DNA of 64,000 bases from Roseobacter sinensis (GTDB lineage: Bacteria; Pseudomonadota; Alphaproteobacteria; Rhodobacterales; Rhodobacteraceae), in NCBI RefSeq assembly GCF_025755255.1, contig NZ_JALIEB010000001.1, positions 62,001-126,000 of the forward strand. The letters are read 5' to 3'. The translations under genes and the position numbers were made by a program. The notes under the pieces were generated by a model, which saw only the letters and a program-made list of their open reading frames with translations, did no database searches and had not been told where the DNA came from. Below, piece by piece: positions 11,742 through 27,585 of this stretch (positions within the stretch are counted from its first letter, which is position 1; the number at the start of each line of letters is the position of its first letter).

Positions 11742-11794
11742 CCGGGGCCTTTATCTGGGTGGTCAATGGATGATCACATCAGAAAGGCGTGCCC

Positions 11795-13132
11795 ATGACA
11801 ATTTCATCGTCGCTCAATGCAGGTGTTGCAGGCTTGCAAACAAATGCTCAGCGGTTGGCGTCCATTTCGGACAACATCTCCAATGCGTCGACATTTGGTT
11901 ACAAGCGGGTGGAGACAGATTTCGAATCCATGGTCCTGTCATCTGGCGGCGGTTCCTATGCCGCTGGCGGCGTGCGCGCCAGTTCGCAGCGGCTGATTGA
12001 TCAGCGCGGCACATTGATCACGACCTCCAACCCGACCGATCTTGCGGTTCGGGGTCGGGGCATGCTGCCGGTCGCGCAGGCCGCGCAGGTTCAAACCGCA
12101 GGTGCTGACGCGCCGATGTTCCTGACAACGACCGGATCGTTCCGCACCGACGCCGAGGGCTATCTGACTTCTCGTTCCGGCCTGGTGTTGATGGGGATCC
12201 CCGCGGCCGCCGACGGCACGATCCCACCGTTTCCCCGGGACACTGCCGATGGGCTTGAACCGATCCGGATCAACACCGGTCAGCTTGCAGGCAACCCGAC
12301 ACTGAACATGAGCCTGGGGATCAACCTCCCCGCGACCGAGACGGAGTTCGGTGCAGCAGCACTGACCGAGCAGCTCTCTGTTGAATACTTCGACAACCTG
12401 GGCACATCGCAGAGCATCAGCATCACGTTCACGCCGACGGCTCCCGCGACCGCCACGGACCCTGCCACGAATGAATGGACAATGGTGATGACCGACTCCG
12501 CCCAAGCCGGAGCCGAAATCGGTCGCTACACACTGACCTTCACTGACGCGCGCACCGCCGGCGGCACTTTGGCCACGGTCACGCCCGTGGCCATTCCTGC
12601 AGGCCCAAATGCAGGCCCCAGCCCGGCCTATAACACCACGACGGGCCTGATCGACGTGAACGTTGCCGCAGGGCCGATTTCTGTTGATATCGGCGCGATC
12701 GGCGACACCGAGGGGCTGTCGCAGCTCTCTTACAGCTTCGCACCTGTTTCCGTGACCAAAGACGGCTCCGCCATCGGCAACTTCATCGGGCTTGATGTTG
12801 ATGCCAACGGCTTTGTTCGGGCCAGCTTTGACACCGGCGAGATCCGCACGGTCTACCAGATCCCGCTGATCAATGTTGCAAACCCGAACGGCCTTCAGGC
12901 GTTCGACAGCCAGACCTATCTGCCGTCCCGCGAGAGCGGCGCCTTCTTCCTCTGGGATGCCGGGGATGGTCCAACCGGTGACATCGTATCCTTTGCCCGG
13001 GAGGAATCGACAACCGACGTGGCCGGTGAGTTGACCGACATGATCAAGACTCAGCGGGCCTATTCGTCGAGTGCAAAGGTGATCCAGACCGTGGATGAGA
13101 TGTTGCAGGAAACAACCAACATCAAGCGATAG
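11795..13132 (+). CDS. flgE: Flagellar hook protein FlgE
   Basis: The 445-residue hook subunit. The N-terminal rod/hook family motif (LNAGVAGLQTNAQRLASISDNISN) and the C-terminal helical motif (ITDMIKTQRAYSSSAKVIQTVDEML in character) bracket a large variable domain. The ATG at 11795 follows AGAAAGG with 7-base spacing; the GTG 6 bp upstream is less likely. It is exported without a cleavable signal and assembles on the rod under FlgD. flgK follows after 42 bp. Confidence 0.95.
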   Translation: MTISSSLNAGVAGLQTNAQRLASISDNISNASTFGYKRVETDFESMVLSSGGGSYAAGGVRASSQRLIDQRGTLITTSNPTDLAVRGRGMLPVAQAAQVQTAGADAPMFLTTTGSFRTDAEGYLTSRSGLVLMGIPAAADGTIPPFPRDTADGLEPIRINTGQLAGNPTLNMSLGINLPATETEFGAAALTEQLSVEYFDNLGTSQSISITFTPTAPATATDPATNEWTMVMTDSAQAGAEIGRYTLTFTDARTAGGTLATVTPVAIPAGPNAGPSPAYNTTTGLIDVNVAAGPISVDIGAIGDTEGLSQLSYSFAPVSVTKDGSAIGNFIGLDVDANGFVRASFDTGEIRTVYQIPLINVANPNGLQAFDSQTYLPSRESGAFFLWDAGDGPTGDIVSFAREESTTDVAGELTDMIKTQRAYSSSAKVIQTVDEMLQETTNIKR

Positions 13133-19189: not shown

Positions 19190-19956
19190 TGTGTCGAACC
19201 GAACGGATTGCCGAGAAAGCTGTCCATGGCCCGGATCCAGACCGAGAGAATCAAAGGCGACGACATCAGCAGCAGGAACAGGCCGCCCGCCGTGATCACG
19301 GGAGCGCCGACGAAGGCCACCATCAGCTGAGGCATGGCCTTGTTGATCGCGCCGAGTGCCACATTATAGAGCACAGACAGAATGACGAAGGGCGCGGCGA
19401 GGGTAAATGCGAGGGTGAACGCGCGCGCGACTTGCGCGACACCCCAGTCTGAGAGAACAGAGCCCTCGGTCAACCGCCCCATCGGCATGACGTCATAGGA
19501 CAGGATGATCAGCTCAGCCGCCTTGACATGCAGGCCGGTCATGACAGCCAGCGCCAGGCCGCCCACGATCAACACATAGCCCATGGCCGGCATCGGGTCG
19601 ACGCCGGCTCCACCTAGAACTTGTGACAGAGAGGTGGCGTGCGCAGCGATTGATCCAGCCGTCTGAAGAGCAAGAATGAAAAGTCGGATGCCAATCCCGA
19701 GAGCAAGCCCGGACAGGATCTCCGTCACGATGATGAAGGCGGTTGTTCCAAACAGATCGGGGATCGGTGTCGTTGGGATGGCAGGCGCGACAATCAAGGT
19801 AAAGGCCAAAGCGAGGACAAGCTTGATACGTGCGGGAACAGACTGTTCGCCGAAGGCTGGCAGCATCGAGGTGATCGCGGCAACACGCACAAACACGGCG
19901 AACCCGTGCCACAAAGTCTCGTTGAGCAGCGGTATGAGCTGCGTCAGACCGTTCAT
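19186..19956 (-). CDS. fliR: Flagellar export gate protein FliR
   Basis: A 256-residue polytopic membrane protein of usual family length with about six hydrophobic segments (FVRVAAITSMLPAFGEQSVP is the typical first helix). It forms part of the FliP-FliQ-FliR export channel. ATGA overlaps at both ends tie it to flhA upstream and flhB downstream, while fliP and fliQ lie in two other operons. Confidence 0.95.
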   Translation of the reverse strand: MNGLTQLIPLLNETLWHGFAVFVRVAAITSMLPAFGEQSVPARIKLVLALAFTLIVAPAIPTTPIPDLFGTTAFIIVTEILSGLALGIGIRLFILALQTAGSIAAHATSLSQVLGGAGVDPMPAMGYVLIVGGLALAVMTGLHVKAAELIILSYDVMPMGRLTEGSVLSDWGVAQVARAFTLAFTLAAPFVILSVLYNVALGAINKAMPQLMVAFVGAPVITAGGLFLLLMSSPLILSVWIRAMDSFLGNPFGSTQ

Positions 19957-22037
19957 GCTGCCACGACACCGACCAGCGAAGGCCGCGCATCAAGGCCGAT
20001 TTCTTCGAAGGACAAGACCGGGTTGTTGATGCCCTTGGCGCGCATGACGGTGCGCAAGAAGCGGCGCCGGCGCGTGTTCGTCACGATAGCCGCGTTGATC
20101 CCGTTCTCGCTGGCGGCCTTTAGTTTCTCCGACATGTTTTCAGCCAAAAGGTTGAAGATGTCGGGCGGCAGAGCAATGTCCAGGCCGCGGTCAGCTTCGA
20201 CCTGATAGGTGTTGAACGTCTCCTCCCATTCTGGGGCAAGCTGCACCAGCGGCAGGGTGCCGTCATCGCGTTTCATGCTGGCAACCAATTGAAAGCCCAG
20301 CCGCTGTCGGACGTGCTCACAAATTGCCTCAGGCTGCGCGTTTTGCGCGCGGGCTTCCGCGGTCGCTTCCAAGATGAGCGGCAAGTTTCTGATCGAAACC
20401 TGCTCATCCAGAAGCAGCCGCAGGACCGCATGCAGTACATCGATGGGAACTTTATCCGGGATCATCTCGTCGAGAAGCTTCCGGTTTGCATCTGCGCGCT
20501 TCGCATCCGACACATTGGTCATCTCATGCAGGAGACGCCGCAGGGACTTCAGAGACAACAACCTGCTGAAGTTCCGCTTGACCGTCTCCAGCAAATGCGT
20601 CGCGAGGATCTCCGCTGGCGTTACAAGTGTCAGGCCATCGAGCGAGGCCTGCTCCTGATCCCGCGTCTTGATCCAACGGGCCGGCGCGCCGTAGACCGGT
20701 TCCGTGGTATCGCGACCATCAGGCAGGCTCGCTGCATCCTCGGGAATGAGAGCAAGTATCTGATCGGGGCTCACCGAGGCACGTGCTTGCTCGACCCCTT
20801 GAATGCGCAAGATATAAGTGCCCACCGGCAGGGCCGCGTTATCGGTCAGTCTGATTTCCGGCAGGATCAGCCCGTAGACCGAGGCAATATGGGTGCGCAT
20901 GTTCGAGATACGGGCATCCAGGCCCGTTCCGGGATCCAGCACCATATTCACGAGATCGGTCGCGAACTCGACGTGAATATCGTCCAGTTCAAGTATGTCT
21001 CCGAGCGGTTTTTCTTTGGGCAGTTCGGCGTGAACGTCCTCTTTGTCCTCCTCGTCCGCTTTCGCCTTGGCGCGTTTGTGCAGCCAATAAGCGAGGCCAC
21101 CCATCATCGCCCCACCAAGAATGAAGGGGCCAAAGGGCAAGCCTGGAAACAATGCGAAGAGCACAAGCAAGCCGGCGACAGTTCCGATTGCCGGGGGGTG
21201 CTTGCCAAGTTGGCTGAACACCGCCAAATCCGTTGCTCCTTGGGCGCCACCACGGGCCAACAGGAGCGCGGACGCGATGGAAATGACCACCGCGGGGATC
21301 TGCGAAACCAAACCGTCGCCCACGGTCAGGATCGCATATGTCTCGAAGGCCTGACCGATCGGCATGTCGTGGACCACAATCCCCATGATCAGCCCGGCGA
21401 CGAGGTTGAGCAGCGTGATCAGCAGACCTGCAATTGCGTCACCTTTGACGAACTTCGAGGCACCATCGAGGGAACCGAAGAAGGTCGTTTCTTGCTGTTC
21501 TCTCTCGCGGCGTTCACGTGCTTCGGCGTGCGTGATCGCGCCGGCGGACATGTCGCTGTCAATGGCAAGTTGTTTACCCGGCATGCCGTCCAAGGCGAAG
21601 CGGGCACCGACCTCTGCCATGCGCGTCGCGCCTTTGGTGATCACCATGAAGTTGACAATCAGCAACACGCAGAAAACGACAAGACCGAGAAAGACGCTGC
21701 CACCCATCACAAATTGGGCGAACCCCTCGATCACATCGCCGGCAGCGTCCGTTCCCGTGTGCCCTTCGCCGATGATCAGCTTGGTCGATGAAACGTTGAG
21801 GGACAGCCTTAACATCAGAGATGCAAGCAGGATGGTCGGGAACGCAGAAAAGTCGAGCGGTCGCTCAATGAACAAGGTGACTGTGAAGATCAGAATGGCG
21901 AGGGCAAAGGAAGCCGCCAAGCCGACATCGAGCACCCAAGCGGGCATCGGCAGGATCATCATGACGATGACCGCCATCAATGCGACTGCAAGCATAACGG
22001 TGGGGTTGAAGAGTGCTTTGGCCGTCAAATTTTGCAC
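19953..22037 (-). CDS. flhA: Flagellar export gate protein FlhA
   Basis: A 694-residue FHIPEP-family protein that forms the nonameric ring under the export channel and docks substrate-chaperone complexes. The N-terminal half has about eight membrane helices (PMPAWVLDVGLAASFALAILI; the loop FVKGDAIAGLLI is conserved), and residues 330-694 form the cytosolic ring domain. The start is a GTG at 22037, two bases after the transglycosylase stop, with GGAG about 10 bases upstream inside that gene. Confidence 0.97.
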   Translation of the reverse strand: MQNLTAKALFNPTVMLAVALMAVIVMMILPMPAWVLDVGLAASFALAILIFTVTLFIERPLDFSAFPTILLASLMLRLSLNVSSTKLIIGEGHTGTDAAGDVIEGFAQFVMGGSVFLGLVVFCVLLIVNFMVITKGATRMAEVGARFALDGMPGKQLAIDSDMSAGAITHAEARERREREQQETTFFGSLDGASKFVKGDAIAGLLITLLNLVAGLIMGIVVHDMPIGQAFETYAILTVGDGLVSQIPAVVISIASALLLARGGAQGATDLAVFSQLGKHPPAIGTVAGLLVLFALFPGLPFGPFILGGAMMGGLAYWLHKRAKAKADEEDKEDVHAELPKEKPLGDILELDDIHVEFATDLVNMVLDPGTGLDARISNMRTHIASVYGLILPEIRLTDNAALPVGTYILRIQGVEQARASVSPDQILALIPEDAASLPDGRDTTEPVYGAPARWIKTRDQEQASLDGLTLVTPAEILATHLLETVKRNFSRLLSLKSLRRLLHEMTNVSDAKRADANRKLLDEMIPDKVPIDVLHAVLRLLLDEQVSIRNLPLILEATAEARAQNAQPEAICEHVRQRLGFQLVASMKRDDGTLPLVQLAPEWEETFNTYQVEADRGLDIALPPDIFNLLAENMSEKLKAASENGINAAIVTNTRRRRFLRTVMRAKGINNPVLSFEEIGLDARPSLVGVVAA

Positions 22038-22039
22038 GG

Positions 22040-22753
22040 TCAGATTTCTCCAGTCTGCGAGAAGAGCGAACCGCCCGGCGCTGATTGCCCCAGCGGCACC
22101 AGGGATCCAAGCCGCGGCTGCGCGTCGGAGCGTTGTAGCAGCGGAAAGCGATTTTCCCGAATTCGAGATACGCTACCCGTCGTGTGGCCAACGGGGTCAT
22201 CCCCGAGGCTTGCATGGATTTCCGAAAAGCGCCTCTTGTAGCGGTTTGCGTGCTCTTGAGTTCGCGAATGATAGGCTCCGACGGCACGCATCCACTCTCC
22301 CTTCTCATCGTAGAGCTCTGTCAGGAAGGCAGCAGCATAGCGCGCATTTTCAATTGGCTCGAACATGTGCTCCAGGCTCGAAAAAGCATGTCCATGCCAA
22401 CGGTAGTTCAACTGGAAGCACCCAATATCAACGTTGGTCAGGCCCTGGTTCAAACGCGATTGTGCATGTTGAACAGCTGCGGATTTGGTCTCGAACCATC
22501 GGCCTGTGCCGCCTGTATTCGTGGCCCAGGGCCAGGGTTCAAAAACACCATTACGGGTGCGCCCGGTTTCCGTCCGGGAAATCGCCTTCAGAATTGAGAA
22601 GGGAACCCCTGTCTCTTGGGAAACAACTGCAGCTGCCCGGTCACAAATGTTCGGCGTGTTTGCGCGGGCCGGCGCTGCGAAAAGGAGTGTACAGGCCAAG
22701 GCAGTCGATGCCATGGCCGCAAAAGAAACGAGTAACGTATTCTGTCGTGCCAT
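22040..22753 (-). CDS. SLT-family lytic transglycosylase, flagellum-associated
   Basis: A 237-residue exported protein: signal peptide (about residues 1-31, ending APARA) followed by a lysozyme-like SLT domain with the catalytic Glu in ISRTETGR and a second motif NVDIGCFQLNYRWHG. Such an enzyme opens the peptidoglycan so the rod can pass. FlgJ in this window lacks a muramidase domain, so this protein probably fills that role, like SltF of Rhodobacter sphaeroides. I chose the ATG at 22753; the ATG at 22804 would add 17 residues before the signal peptide. Confidence 0.82.
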   Translation of the reverse strand: MARQNTLLVSFAAMASTALACTLLFAAPARANTPNICDRAAAVVSQETGVPFSILKAISRTETGRTRNGVFEPWPWATNTGGTGRWFETKSAAVQHAQSRLNQGLTNVDIGCFQLNYRWHGHAFSSLEHMFEPIENARYAAAFLTELYDEKGEWMRAVGAYHSRTQEHANRYKRRFSEIHASLGDDPVGHTTGSVSRIRENRFPLLQRSDAQPRLGSLVPLGQSAPGGSLFSQTGEI

Positions 22754-22859
22754 TCTGACCCTTTTCGCGCGGCGCTCTGCAGCGGTCCATAGATATCGAT
22801 TCAAGGTTTATTTTGCGTAACCGGATGATGTGTCATCCGAACGGGGGTCCGAAGTGGGG

Positions 22860-25118
22860 CTAAGGGTCGACCGGCAAGCCACCAAGTATCTCTTCCAGAG
22901 TCGTTCGGGCCGAGCTGCTTTGCTCAACGGCCGAGCCGATCATCTCCAACATGCCGTCCTCTGCGGCAACCGGAGGTATGGCTTCCTCGGACAGAACTCG
23001 AGCTTGCCCAAACACTGGAGCATCGCTCTCGACCAATTCAGTCCATTCATTCGCCAACCACGCTGCGCGAACGGCATCTTGCTCCGCGTCTAAGGTTTCA
23101 AATAAGCTGAATGCTTCCTTGTTGTCGCCAAGTTGCGACAACGCTCTTGCCTTCAAAGGGACCGACAGATCGCTCTGTACGAGTCCGAGCACAGTGAGTG
23201 CGGCTTCGGGCTGCCGCATTGCAATTAGAGCTTCGGCGTGCAGAAGCCTGAGATCATCATTCGCCCGATCTGCGGGGAGATCGGCGAGGATCGCCTCCGC
23301 TTCGGCTGCAAAGCCCAATTCAAGCAGTCGCGAGACCGTCGCCTCGACCGATACAATCGAGAGCGCAGACGCATTCGTTGGAAACTCGGCAAAAAATGCA
23401 TCCAGGAAGGTAATGTCATCGGCGTTGGACGACAGAGCAGAAAAGATCAGCGACCTCAGTTCGTTCAGAAGGTCAGGATCCGCTGTTACAAGCTCGTTTT
23501 CCAGCGCTTCGAAGGCCTTATCGAATTGATCGGAGTAGGCTGAGGCAATCACATGCGCACGCTGGAGGTCCTGTGCAATCGGGCTGTCGCGCCATTCGAA
23601 CGCATATGTTTCGATCAGAAGCGCAACATCAGCCGAGATCGCTTTCCCCTCGTCAAGACGGCTGTTGACCAAAGCGATCATGGCTTGAGGCGTTTCGGCC
23701 GCATTGTCTTCGATCACCTCTGACAGAAGATTCTCGGCCCTTTCGGTGTTCCCGGATTGTTTCTCGATTGTCGCTTCTGCGAGATCCGAATCGCTCTCAT
23801 TGCCGGTCTTGGTCCAGTCGGTGTTCCGCAAAGCAATCGACGCGGAGTCCAAACTGCCGCTATCTGCAAGACGCTTGCTCAGTGCCGGTGCAATGAACCG
23901 CCTCAGATGGTCAGGCAGTGCTGCCAAAGCGCGCAACGCTGCCGCTTCATTCAATATCTGCTCGGCCGGCAGCTCTTGGGCGGCCATTGCGGCCCAAAGC
24001 GCCAACTCGGATTCGCAATCGGCAAACCGATGGACGAACCGTGGGTTACGTGCGAACCCATGCTCCATGATGTCGGCCAAATCCATCAACTCGGGATGCT
24101 CGGAAGCTAAGGTACCTGACAAGCTCAGCACCTCTTTGGCCTCCGCGCCAAAGCCGAAAAAGATGTAGAGACGGGCGAGCGCAATCGCCTGGTCGGGATT
24201 GAGGCGGTCAACCTCTGAGTACAGCGCTCGCCTCATACCAGCGACCTGAAGATGGAACGGGTCCTCTCCGCCCCATTCCGGCACCATGACACGATCTGGC
24301 GACGCACAAACCGCACCCGATGTCATCAGATCCCCATCAAGCGCTCCACGCGGGGTGTCACGGCTGCTCGTTATCCGGATGTTGCCGCCTTCAGGAGCGA
24401 CCACCACAATTTCTTCTTCGGATGAGTCAAAGATCTCTTCGGCTGGTGGCATCTCCTCCTCGCCGATAACTCCGTTGAGGTCTGGGGTGGCGGGTTCAAG
24501 TATGCCCCGAGATGCCGCGTTGCTGAGCCCGGCCAGCAATTGCTGGCGCGTCTGTTCAACAAAGGCGGCTTCGCTCTCTCTCGCCTCGACGCTCGGATCA
24601 ATAGCATCCGGTTGCTGCTCGGCCGGCGACTTGTTGGATGCAATCGCTTCACCATCGGGGGATGCGAAGTCGGACCAAAGAAGATCGCCAAAATTGAAAC
24701 CGGACGCAGGGCGGGCCGTTATGAAGCGTGGCGCAGACGCTGTGCTCTCGGGAGGCAACGGCGGACCATCCAGAATATCGACGACGAGGAACTCTCGGCG
24801 TTCGACAAATGTGTTGACGTCACAGACGCATGACAGGTCCAGTTCGAGTCGGGAGGGATAGGGGCGGACCTCGAGAAGTTGATCGCGCGGTATCACATCA
24901 AAGACCCGGCTGACGTTGAAACCAGCGTCATGCCCGCGAAAGGAGATCGTCTTTAGCCCAGGTTCTTCAATGAGTTCCCAGGTTACATTTTCCGGCAAAC
25001 GCAAGACCAGACGGGTGAAACCCTCATGATCACCGGATCGGACGACGATGGGATTCGAATGCGCGGCACCCGCAAACAAGAGAGCAATTAGACCCGCGAG
25101 GGACGCCAATCTGATCAT
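22860..25118 (-). CDS. Exported AMIN-like plus helical-repeat protein, unknown flagellar role
   Basis: A 752-residue protein with a signal peptide (residues 1-21, ending AAHS). A beta-rich N-terminal part (about 22-120; TRLVLRLPENVTWELIEEPG...) resembles AMIN domains, which bind peptidoglycan or secretins and occur in cell-wall amidases. Residues 120-280 are acidic and low in order. The remainder (about 285-740) is Ala/Leu/Glu-rich helical sequence, suggesting TPR/Sel1-like solenoid repeats. The start overlaps the motA stop (ATGA, 25115-25118), so it is coupled to the stator gene, and the transglycosylase follows. A motor- or wall-linked periplasmic scaffold is an inference; no family is recognised. 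Confidence 0.72.
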   Translation of the reverse strand: MIRLASLAGLIALLFAGAAHSNPIVVRSGDHEGFTRLVLRLPENVTWELIEEPGLKTISFRGHDAGFNVSRVFDVIPRDQLLEVRPYPSRLELDLSCVCDVNTFVERREFLVVDILDGPPLPPESTASAPRFITARPASGFNFGDLLWSDFASPDGEAIASNKSPAEQQPDAIDPSVEARESEAAFVEQTRQQLLAGLSNAASRGILEPATPDLNGVIGEEEMPPAEEIFDSSEEEIVVVAPEGGNIRITSSRDTPRGALDGDLMTSGAVCASPDRVMVPEWGGEDPFHLQVAGMRRALYSEVDRLNPDQAIALARLYIFFGFGAEAKEVLSLSGTLASEHPELMDLADIMEHGFARNPRFVHRFADCESELALWAAMAAQELPAEQILNEAAALRALAALPDHLRRFIAPALSKRLADSGSLDSASIALRNTDWTKTGNESDSDLAEATIEKQSGNTERAENLLSEVIEDNAAETPQAMIALVNSRLDEGKAISADVALLIETYAFEWRDSPIAQDLQRAHVIASAYSDQFDKAFEALENELVTADPDLLNELRSLIFSALSSNADDITFLDAFFAEFPTNASALSIVSVEATVSRLLELGFAAEAEAILADLPADRANDDLRLLHAEALIAMRQPEAALTVLGLVQSDLSVPLKARALSQLGDNKEAFSLFETLDAEQDAVRAAWLANEWTELVESDAPVFGQARVLSEEAIPPVAAEDGMLEMIGSAVEQSSSARTTLEEILGGLPVDP

Positions 25119-25984
25119 GCAGCACCTTGTTTCACCGATTTTAGCGCTTCTTCAAGCTCGGCAAAGCTGGGTCGACAATGAGAGGGCGTATTCTGGCGAC
25201 CGACTTCAATGCAGATATTGGTGGCGTGGGCGTGCAAATTTGCAACCAACACCTCACGGATCAGCTGGTAAAAGTGGCCATCTTCTTCCGTAATTGTTTT
25301 GACCTTCGCGGCGAATGGTCCAACAAAGCCATAGGCCAGAAATACGCCGAGAAAGGTTCCCACAAGCGCACCACCAATCAGTTTCCCGAGCACTTCTGGC
25401 GGCTGATCGATTGACCCCATTGTCTTAATGATGCCCAACACCGCAGCCACAATGCCGAGAGCGGGAAGCCCGTCCGCGACGGTCTGCAACGCGTGGCTGG
25501 AGTGCATCGCATGGTGCATGTTCGCCTCCATGCGCTTCTCCAGAACCTCCTCAACCTGATGCGGATCGTCATAGTTCATCGACGCTGAACGCATCGTATC
25601 GCAAATCAGGGCAATGGCTTCCTTGTCCTTCAAGATCTTGGGATATTTCGAAAAAATCGATGAGTCGTCCGGTGCTTCGATATGCTCCTCGATCGCGACC
25701 GGGTTCTGCCGCGCGAGGCGAATGAGTTCGAACAGAAGGCATAGAAGATCCTTATAGTCTTCATGCGCCCACTTCGGACCTTTGAAGACCTTCCCCATGT
25801 CGCGGGCCGTCTGCTTGATTGCAGACGAATCATTGCTGATGAGGAACGCGCCAACGGCGGCCCCGCCAATCATCGTCAGCTCGAACGGCAAAGCTTTGAT
25901 GATGATGCCCATCTTGCCTCCGGCAGCCAGATAGCCGCCAAAGACCATCGCAAAAACGCAGACAACGCCAATGATTCCGATCAT
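25115..25984 (-). CDS. motA: Flagellar stator protein MotA
   Basis: A 289-residue stator subunit with four membrane helices: two at the N-terminus (GIIGVVCVFAMVFGGYLA) and two near residues 170-230 (LPALGIVAAVLGIIKTMGSID; ALVGTFLGVFLAYGFVGPFA, which lines the ion path). The charged cytoplasmic loop between them contacts FliG. I chose the ATG at 25984; a TTG 12 bases upstream is the alternative. It forms the proton channel with MotB, encoded 14 kb away on the other strand. Confidence 0.96.
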   Translation of the reverse strand: MIGIIGVVCVFAMVFGGYLAAGGKMGIIIKALPFELTMIGGAAVGAFLISNDSSAIKQTARDMGKVFKGPKWAHEDYKDLLCLLFELIRLARQNPVAIEEHIEAPDDSSIFSKYPKILKDKEAIALICDTMRSASMNYDDPHQVEEVLEKRMEANMHHAMHSSHALQTVADGLPALGIVAAVLGIIKTMGSIDQPPEVLGKLIGGALVGTFLGVFLAYGFVGPFAAKVKTITEEDGHFYQLIREVLVANLHAHATNICIEVGRQNTPSHCRPSFAELEEALKSVKQGAA

Positions 25985-26048
25985 CTCGAACCCCAATGAT
26001 TACCAAGCACCATTGTCGCAAAAGGAAGTTAAAAAAGCCTCTGCGCGG

Positions 26049-26657
26049 TCAGCTTTCGGGGACGTCCGCGTTGCGTCCCGCGAGAATGACGCTGATGGAA
26101 TAGGCCGTTTGCGGAGACAGTCCCGCCATAACCCCAGCCGCCGCATCCGGACGCATACGCCCGAGAAAACCGGCTGCAAAAGCTGGCTCCATTTCCTCGA
26201 ACAAGGCGGCCGCCTCTTTCGGCTTCATGTTTTCATAGACTGTCGTCAGCCGCGCGAGATCATCTTCGGCCGCAGTGTTCGCAAGCGCGAGCAGATTTCT
26301 CAGGGACTCTTCGGCTTGCTGCAGATTGGTCAACCGACGTTCGATCTCCTCATCCGCAACCGACAGGGCTTTCATCCTCATGTCGATCTGCTCTTCACGT
26401 TCAGCAAGCCGGGCTTCGCGCTGCTGAAATGACTCGAGCATCTTCGACATGCGCTCGCGTTCGTCAGCCGCCAAGGGCTTGTCGGAGGTCGTGGCACTCT
26501 TGGCCGCGGTCTCGACAGCTGCAGAGGGGTTTTCGGTTGCGACAGCCTGCCCGGCCCCGATGCCGATGCGAAGAAGCGCAGAGCCGACAAGGAGGCCAGC
26601 GATCAGCAAGATCGAACCACGACCGTTCCGGCCCAAAAGAAGCTTCATCTTTTTCAT
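26049..26657 (-). CDS. MotE-like flagellar motility protein
   Basis: A 202-residue protein with an N-terminal membrane anchor (about residues 15-35), a long coiled coil (about 65-130) and a C-terminal domain (MKPKEAAALFEEMEPAFAAGFLGRMRPDAAAGVMAGL) of the MgtE-N/MotE type. In Sinorhizobium, MotE is a chaperone for the periplasmic motility protein MotC. It overlaps the upstream DUF6468-like gene by ATGA and lies 64 bp before motA, supporting a stator-related role. Confidence 0.75.
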   Translation of the reverse strand: MKKMKLLLGRNGRGSILLIAGLLVGSALLRIGIGAGQAVATENPSAAVETAAKSATTSDKPLAADERERMSKMLESFQQREARLAEREEQIDMRMKALSVADEEIERRLTNLQQAEESLRNLLALANTAAEDDLARLTTVYENMKPKEAAALFEEMEPAFAAGFLGRMRPDAAAGVMAGLSPQTAYSISVILAGRNADVPES

Positions 26658-27043
26658 TGGTGAGTCTCCGCGCTGCGATGACGTACAAACATCGGTTCGC
26701 TGACCTGTGCGGCCGGAGCCGGTGTCGGCTGTGGCGCGGGCTGACGCACCTGCGGAGCCTCGGGAAGATCATGCAGGGACGCCATCTGCAACTCGAGTTT
26801 GCGCGACATGTCCTCGGCTCTCTTCGTCAGGTCCGTCAGGGTCTGCGCCGATGCTGCCGCGGTTGACTGCGCCGCCGACAAGGTCTTCGTCAGGTCATCG
26901 ACCTGAGCGGACAAAACGGCGACAGCTCCACCGACACCTTTTTCCAGGTCGTTGAACCGATTGAGCCGCCGACCAAGCACGAGACAATAAAATCCGGCCC
27001 CAAGTGCGCCGGCCGCCAGCAAAACATCTGCGATCAATTCCAT
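26654..27043 (-). CDS. Membrane-anchored coiled-coil protein (DUF6468-like)
   Basis: A 129-residue protein with one N-terminal membrane segment (DVLLAAGALGAGFYCLVLGRR, residues 5-25), a predicted coiled coil (about 30-95) and a Pro-rich tail (about 98-115). The layout and position between fliL and motE fit the DUF6468 family of alphaproteobacterial flagellar clusters, related to the Caulobacter positioning protein PflI. I assign this by architecture, not by clear motif. An AAGGAGG lies 6 bases before the ATG. Confidence 0.6.
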   Translation of the reverse strand: MELIADVLLAAGALGAGFYCLVLGRRLNRFNDLEKGVGGAVAVLSAQVDDLTKTLSAAQSTAAASAQTLTDLTKRAEDMSRKLELQMASLHDLPEAPQVRQPAPQPTPAPAAQVSEPMFVRHRSAETHQ

Positions 27044-27053
27044 GTCACCCTCC

Positions 27054-27539
27054 TTAATTCAGTACAAATTCCATGATCAGCAGGTCCTTGACCTGCTCCG
27101 GCCCCGTCACCACCTGCACCCGTCTGAGCATTTGCGCCCGAAGACGGGTCAGAGCGGACGGGTTGGCGATGTCCTGCGCGTCGATAGCCCGCAGATAACC
27201 GTTCAGAACATCCACGACGCGTGGCAAAACGGCTTCGACATCAGAGGCATATTTGCTTGCAACCTCGAGTTCGGCGCGAAACCTCAGATGACTTTGCGGA
27301 CTGCCCGGAGGCAGGGACACCGTGATCGGATCGATGGGAACAAAGGCAACGGCCGGTCCTTCAACCGTTTTTGTTTCTTCTGCCTTTGGCTCTTCTGATT
27401 CGGCGCCGAAGAGCAGACCGCTCCACGTCGCATAAAAGCCACCCCCGCCGCCCAGAAGCAGCAGGACAAGGCCAATAATCAAAGGCATCTTTGACGATTT
27501 TGGTTCACTCTCGTCTTCAACAATCGCTGCGTCAGCCAT
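27054..27539 (-). CDS. fliL: Flagellar basal-body protein FliL
   Basis: A 161-residue protein with a short acidic cytoplasmic N-terminus, one membrane helix (PLIIGLVLLLLGGGGGF), an acidic linker and a C-terminal periplasmic domain (LRFRAELEVASKYASDVEAVLPRVVDVLNGYL) typical of FliL. It supports stators and swarming motility in other bacteria. The ATG at 27539 is preferred over one 6 bp upstream because GGG then has a usable spacing. It heads the minus-strand operon through flhB. A second FliL-like gene is at 31630-32148. Confidence 0.9.
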   Translation of the reverse strand: MADAAIVEDESEPKSSKMPLIIGLVLLLLGGGGGFYATWSGLLFGAESEEPKAEETKTVEGPAVAFVPIDPITVSLPPGSPQSHLRFRAELEVASKYASDVEAVLPRVVDVLNGYLRAIDAQDIANPSALTRLRAQMLRRVQVVTGPEQVKDLLIMEFVLN

Positions 27540-27585
27540 GACCATCCCATTTTAGGTTACGAAATTTGTTATAGACGCGATTGCA

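Follow-up and report, generated by a model that had tools for sequence, protein, structure and literature searches.

What is the protein encoded directly behind the stator gene motA in the flagellar cluster of Roseobacter sinensis? In the window, by which we mean the whole 64,000-nucleotide stretch of contig NZ_JALIEB010000001.1 that was analyzed, motA is followed on the minus strand by an intact open reading frame (ORF) of 752 amino acids. A sequence-only reading had presented this ORF as undescribed and as a candidate new component; we reject that label, because the protein has been published as MotK (motK, 2024) and as CP4 (2025), with a Caulobacter counterpart named fssB (2021). By gene order, domain order, and linkage, the ORF is the Roseobacter-group orthologue of MotK/CP4. 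We consider it highly probable that it acts as a secreted component of the flagellar motor inherited vertically in Rhodobacterales, with an AMIN domain that would contact the wall or scaffold and a solenoid arm that would serve, with MotE, in stator recruitment or opening.

Periplasmic location, MotE/MotB binding, and the dependence of rotation on the protein come from the work of others on orthologues or likely homologues and would apply to the window protein by analogy. In the Fla2 system of Cereibacter sphaeroides, MotK is reported to be periplasmic, to bind MotE and MotB2, and to be required for rotation and swimming, and a MotK-sfGFP fusion is polar and disappears from the pole when MotA2 and MotB2 are missing (PMC10954123). 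The sequence-only reading had suggested a role in stator placement, which agrees with these reported properties, namely a non-rotating mutant, MotB2 and MotE binding, and MotA2/MotB2-dependent polar localization. In Phaeobacter inhibens, the fla1 order is given as CP2, CP3, motA, CP4, sltF, flhA, fliR, flhB (PMC12363192, 2025); CP4 mutants are described as non-motile with a reduced export set that still includes FlgE, FlgK, and FliC, and CP2 and CP3 mutants as exporting FlgH only (PMC12363192). The discussion of that paper lists CP1 and CP3 as late-acting and leaves CP4 out, at odds with its own results; it terms the functions of CP1-4 enigmatic and states that they are absent from fla2/fla3 clusters and outside Rhodobacterales (PMC12363192). 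Its main text has zero occurrences of MotK, MotE, or TPR. Numbering differs between the two species, and we read the vertically inherited "Fla2" of C. sphaeroides as the counterpart of "fla1" in the P. inhibens paper. In Caulobacter crescentus, fssB (CC_2058) mutants are reported to be flagellated but non-motile, and both stator function and mechanical adhesion signaling to need FssB (PMC7885107). MotK homologues of low similarity have been noted in Roseobacteraceae, with a likeness to CC_2058 in structure only (PMC10954123). MotE has been proposed as an E-ring protein with MotK, MotC, and CC_2058 as PflA-like partners (PMC13023049, PMC11870540), and a 2026 review treats MotC and MotK as diverged homologues on structural grounds and likens MotK to PflA (PMC13023049).

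Domain order, fold, linkage, and conservation were established in the present analysis. A full-length AlphaFold2 model, built on an alignment of 59 rows (A3: the window together with 58 of the 80 named loci described below, the other 22 being omitted partly for over-extended starts or cut contigs and otherwise by choice), has a mean predicted local distance difference test score (pLDDT) of 85.4 and a predicted template modeling score of 0.63. It divides the protein as follows:

25053..25118, minus strand: putative Sec signal peptide, residues 1-22, with cleavage after AHS judged by eye and a modeled helix at 2-19
24765..25052, minus strand: AMIN-fold domain, residues 23-118, in which C97 and C99 are near-invariant
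24333..24764, minus strand: low-confidence, probably disordered linker, residues 119-262, with pLDDT <50 at 125-174, 212-215, and 217-258
24498..24563, minus strand: conserved helical island within the linker, residues 186-207
22863..24332, minus strand: TPR-like solenoid, residues 263-752, in which C271 and C368 are invariant, assigned from the model, fold matches, and cysteine conservation

The AMIN-like N-terminus and helical solenoid that had been read from the sequence are borne out by this model and by fold searches, and the signal-like N-terminus looks typical by eye and is compatible with the modeled helix at 2-19. Eight strands lie in residues 24-116, and the N-terminal domain modeled separately reaches a pLDDT of 95.6. 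Helices span residues 274 to 747, about 470 residues and close to the roughly 450 first estimated. Confidence falls below a pLDDT of 50 across most of 125-258, save near a helix at 175-203. Within the linker helix, the core at 194-207 carries majority residues in 29 to 95% of the 59 rows, the best-kept positions being L194 (fraction 0.90), A201 (0.92), and G205 (0.95). Near kin share four fixed cysteines (C97, C99, C271, and C368) and a conserved linker helix.

Profile libraries say little about this protein: the window copy has no Pfam or NCBIfam match above cut-off and, at E values up to 1, no sequence relative of solved structure, and a Mu DNA-binding match (E 0.063, below cut-off) was rejected. 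Among the 59 aligned members, only 2 match Pfam AMIN-like and 11 match Pfam TPR_19 at E values up to 0.01. Structure is more informative. The best Foldseek match of the isolated N-terminal domain is the AMIN domain of AmiC (E 2.8e-03), followed by PilQ AMIN domains, and the top match of the full model is the chain 9hmf_K, which belongs to the motor scaffold of Campylobacter and is probably PflA. When the matches of the full model are re-ranked by Z, unrelated TPR chains (LGN, OGT, designed repeats, APC/C) dominate, and no 9hmf chain is among the 50 matches listed; the solenoid matches therefore mean little beyond "TPR-like". The full model has the AMIN-linker-TPR architecture of the PflA type.

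Linkage to motA, which the sequence-only reading had noted, is conserved. When the window protein was searched against 120 genomes of the family, 82 had a motK match (a single one in the genome of the window itself), compared with 91 for MotA_N (89 above cut-off) and 98 for FlgI. In 81 of the 82, the motK match lies 3' of motA and shares its strand, 582-1578 nucleotides from the MotA_N match; in G040, the one exception, MotA is not matched and motK is matched only from profile position 190 onward. Eighty named loci, which are the best 80 of at least 572 MotA relatives and so biased to near kin, show the arrangement more closely. The motK ORF adjoins motA in 79 of them, with a four-base overlap in 57 of the 79 by automatic start calls; in the remaining locus (L074), the frame opens at the same site by eye and runs off the contig. 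Matches to the other window neighbors number 79 for motE, 78 for pflI, 77 for fliL, 72 for flhA, and 45 for the transglycosylase, some contigs being cut. Because ORFs of similar size and sequence hold the same place across the family, the motK ORF is not a chance frame. A profile from a smaller alignment (A1: the window plus 25 of 30 loci, of which L001 is the window itself and L018, L023, L024, and L026 were omitted by choice, three having over-long starts) scores 543.6 bits at a Phaeobacter sp. locus (L094) and 732.5 bits in Leisingera aquimarina (L109).

Ten family genomes match MotA yet lack a motK match in the window-protein search. One (G034) carries a full motK by profile (E 3.0e-126). 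In another (G039, L032:3219-4265), a 348-residue motK that adjoins motE and motA keeps the AMIN domain and has lost nearly all of the solenoid; the flhA of this genome is only 37% identical to that of the window. The contig of G113 ends shortly past motA. In G023 (L033:3126-3833), a 235-residue ORF without MotK similarity sits between motA and flhA, a profile search found no motK match elsewhere in the genome, and a weakly motE-like gene is present. No motE or fliL match occurs in the 5.8-10 kb around motA in G006, G027, G044, or G107, and the MotA matches of G045 and G104 are below cut-off only. On plasmids, tblastn returned one record, with 40% of the query covered. This plasmid, pD4M1D of Paroceanicella profunda (L189:5984-8635), has a flagellar gene cluster in which fliL, two hypothetical genes, and motA are accompanied by a motK-like gene whose annotation reads hypothetical protein.

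In the window itself, the gene order is fliL-pflI-motE-motA-motK-sltF-flhA-fliR-flhB, with motB and flgE further off:

22860..25118, minus strand: motK (CP4 orthologue), 752 amino acids, ATG start, directly 3' of motA
25115..25996, minus strand: motA (stator), NCBIfam MotA1 370.8 bits, above cut-off
26049..26657, minus strand: motE/E-ring protein homologue (CP3 position), with NCBIfam FlbB collar and Pfam MgtE_N matches, both below cut-off
26654..27043, minus strand: pflI-like gene (CP2 position), Pfam DUF6468 E 0.0025, below cut-off, labeled by position after the C. sphaeroides operon
27054..27545, minus strand: fliL, Pfam FliL 52 bits, above cut-off
22040..22804, minus strand: lytic transglycosylase (sltF position), Pfam SLT E 5.8e-06, above cut-off
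19953..22037, minus strand: flhA, Pfam FHIPEP 736.5 bits
19186..19956, minus strand: fliR, Pfam Bac_export_1 147 bits
18104..19189, minus strand: flhB, Pfam Bac_export_2 337.4 bits
10861..11694, plus strand: motB (stator partner), Pfam MotB_plug E 1.4e-19, ahead of flgE
11789-13132: flgE

The sequence and the Pfam SLT match confirm the 752-residue ORF, the four-base ATGA overlap of its start with the end of motA, and the transglycosylase as the next gene, all noted at the outset. The motE-like protein matches FlbB collar with E 1.7e-10 and 41 bits (cut-off 110) and MgtE_N with E 4.9e-05 and 24.2 bits (cut-off 25.9). FlbB is NCBI's spirochaete collar protein, and the sub-cut-off match fits MotE as an E-ring protein.

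How might such a protein work? The AMIN domain would probably contact the cell wall or the adjoining scaffold, the TPR-like solenoid would reach as an arm from the MotE ring, which encircles the MS-ring, to the stator, and MotK and MotE together may recruit MotA/MotB units to the motor or hold them open. MotK would most likely link the MotE ring, MotB, and the wall within the periplasm. That the window copy has the same function, touches the wall, and takes a spoke-like geometry is what we infer by analogy. Two reported observations speak against a simple transfer of the MotK role: localization of MotK needs MotA2/MotB2, unlike a pre-formed spoke (PMC10954123), and the CP3 mutant of P. inhibens is export-defective, as opposed to the motE mutants of C. 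sphaeroides, which are flagellated.

The dependence of MotE on MotK raises the alternative that MotK chiefly stabilizes MotE and that rotation is lost secondarily to MotE. MotE is described as unstable without MotK in C. sphaeroides (PMC10954123), and the two genes are linked; however, MotK itself is reported to bind MotB2 and to depend on MotA2/MotB2 for its presence at the flagellated pole, and the solenoid-less, AMIN-bearing motK beside motE in G039 misfits a solenoid that merely holds MotE. We regard this explanation as improbable. Less likely again is that motK works with the adjacent transglycosylase to let the rod or hook cross the wall, a variant of which (rod passage) the sequence-only reading had put forward. 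Although sltF adjoins motK in the window and AMIN domains such as that of AmiC are reported to bind peptidoglycan, BLAST with the window transglycosylase has matches at 45 of these 80 loci, or 45 of the 72 with flhA, where divergent ones could be missed, against 80 of 80 for motK. Rod passage is further disfavored by the published mutants: export of FlgE, FlgK, and FliC persists in the CP4 mutant, if with fewer proteins exported than in wild type, and fssB mutants keep their filaments. A role in placing the flagellum, as a polar landmark like FimV/HubP, is extremely unlikely, and we rejected this identity, since the NCBIfam FimV_Cterm match that hints at it (E 0.029) covers only about 30 residues at 14.4 bits, below the cut-off of 30.65, no LysM family is among the Pfam matches, and linkage to motA is tight.

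How far do relatives of MotK extend? Across the class, the 59-row profile matches 153 of 385 genomes, 4 inside the window's family and 149 outside it; the "same class" label of these 149 is read as outside the window's order, and one (G176, L152) has Rhodobacterales-like gene order. Forty of the 149 loci were inspected, chosen by hand and mostly high-scoring rather than random. Rescoring recovered all 40 with stop-to-stop frames and filters off, and 37 with start-codon ORFs and default filters; frames of at least 900 amino acids occur in 37, AMIN and TPR parts both exceed 8 bits in 32, and 17 have two AMIN copies. In these stretches of 12 to 19 kb, a motE homologue lies on the same strand in 36 and fliL is found in 34. 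Profile-profile alignment joins the two sets over 414 solenoid columns (probability 99.9) and one AMIN (96.5), a result that is partly circular in that the second set was selected and scored with the first profile; genomic position is evidence independent of that circularity. In another "same class" genome, a 584-residue protein directly after motA (L170:8947-10701) has a solenoid match and no AMIN part. The 232 genomes with no profile match count against a class-wide family, though divergent copies may be missed or these genomes may be without flagella. The linker helix was rejected as a class-wide motif: a hidden Markov model, run without positive control, placed 0 of 40 loci above 5 bits, and a weight matrix placed 1 of 40 above the 99th percentile of shuffles (6.7, where all 59 A3 members score at least 19.9). 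Being confined to near kin, the helix at 186-207 may be a Rhodobacterales-specific docking site.

MotK, CP4, FssB, and the PflA-like proteins of the class are probably one family. A tentative proposal, which we find conceivable but short of probable, goes further: that in Alphaproteobacteria they form a single ancestral family of E-ring partners that can be recognized by sequence; that its members outside Rhodobacterales often carry two AMIN domains in tandem, reduced to one within that order; that the linker helix was newly gained there as a stator/scaffold docking site; and that MotK could serve stator-based mechanical sensing for surface attachment in Roseobacters, as FssB does in Caulobacter. 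The profile matches suggest that the published absence of CP1-4 outside Rhodobacterales fails for CP4. The protein itself is already known, and the gain here is modest, consisting of sequence evidence from across the class and the linking of published names; for the latter, the literature search covered open-access papers, and no search was aimed at papers that equate CP4 with MotK. With the names joined, CP4, function-less in its own paper, becomes readable as MotK and so acquires partners and a role. The class-wide matches support the proposed great age of E-ring partners within the class, and the linker helix and four fixed cysteines offer concrete targets for how stators are held.

Compared with known systems, the window protein resembles C. 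sphaeroides MotK as described, which also follows motA in a fliL-pflI-motE-motA operon and has a signal peptide, an AMIN N-terminus, a disordered middle, and a TPR-like remainder; it differs in length (652 residues there and 752 here), the two being compared by description, gene order, and domain order. With P. inhibens CP4, reported as essential for swimming, it shares the motA-CP4-sltF-flhA-fliR-flhB order and the bacterial group. FssB is likewise a secreted TPR protein whose gene adjoins an E-ring candidate (CC_2059) and whose mutants have paralyzed flagella, but unlike MotK as known, it also acts in mechanical stimulation of the holdfast; its link to MotK was drawn by others from structure and is reached here only via the class-wide relatives. 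PflA of Campylobacter jejuni is described with the same AMIN-like beta-sandwich, flexible linker, and TPR superhelix and contacts an E-ring protein (PMC11870540, PMC12222027), whereas MotK differs in that its localization requires stator proteins. PflA also binds PflB through its linker (PMC11870540, PMC12222027), which is what makes the conserved linker helix of MotK a lead.
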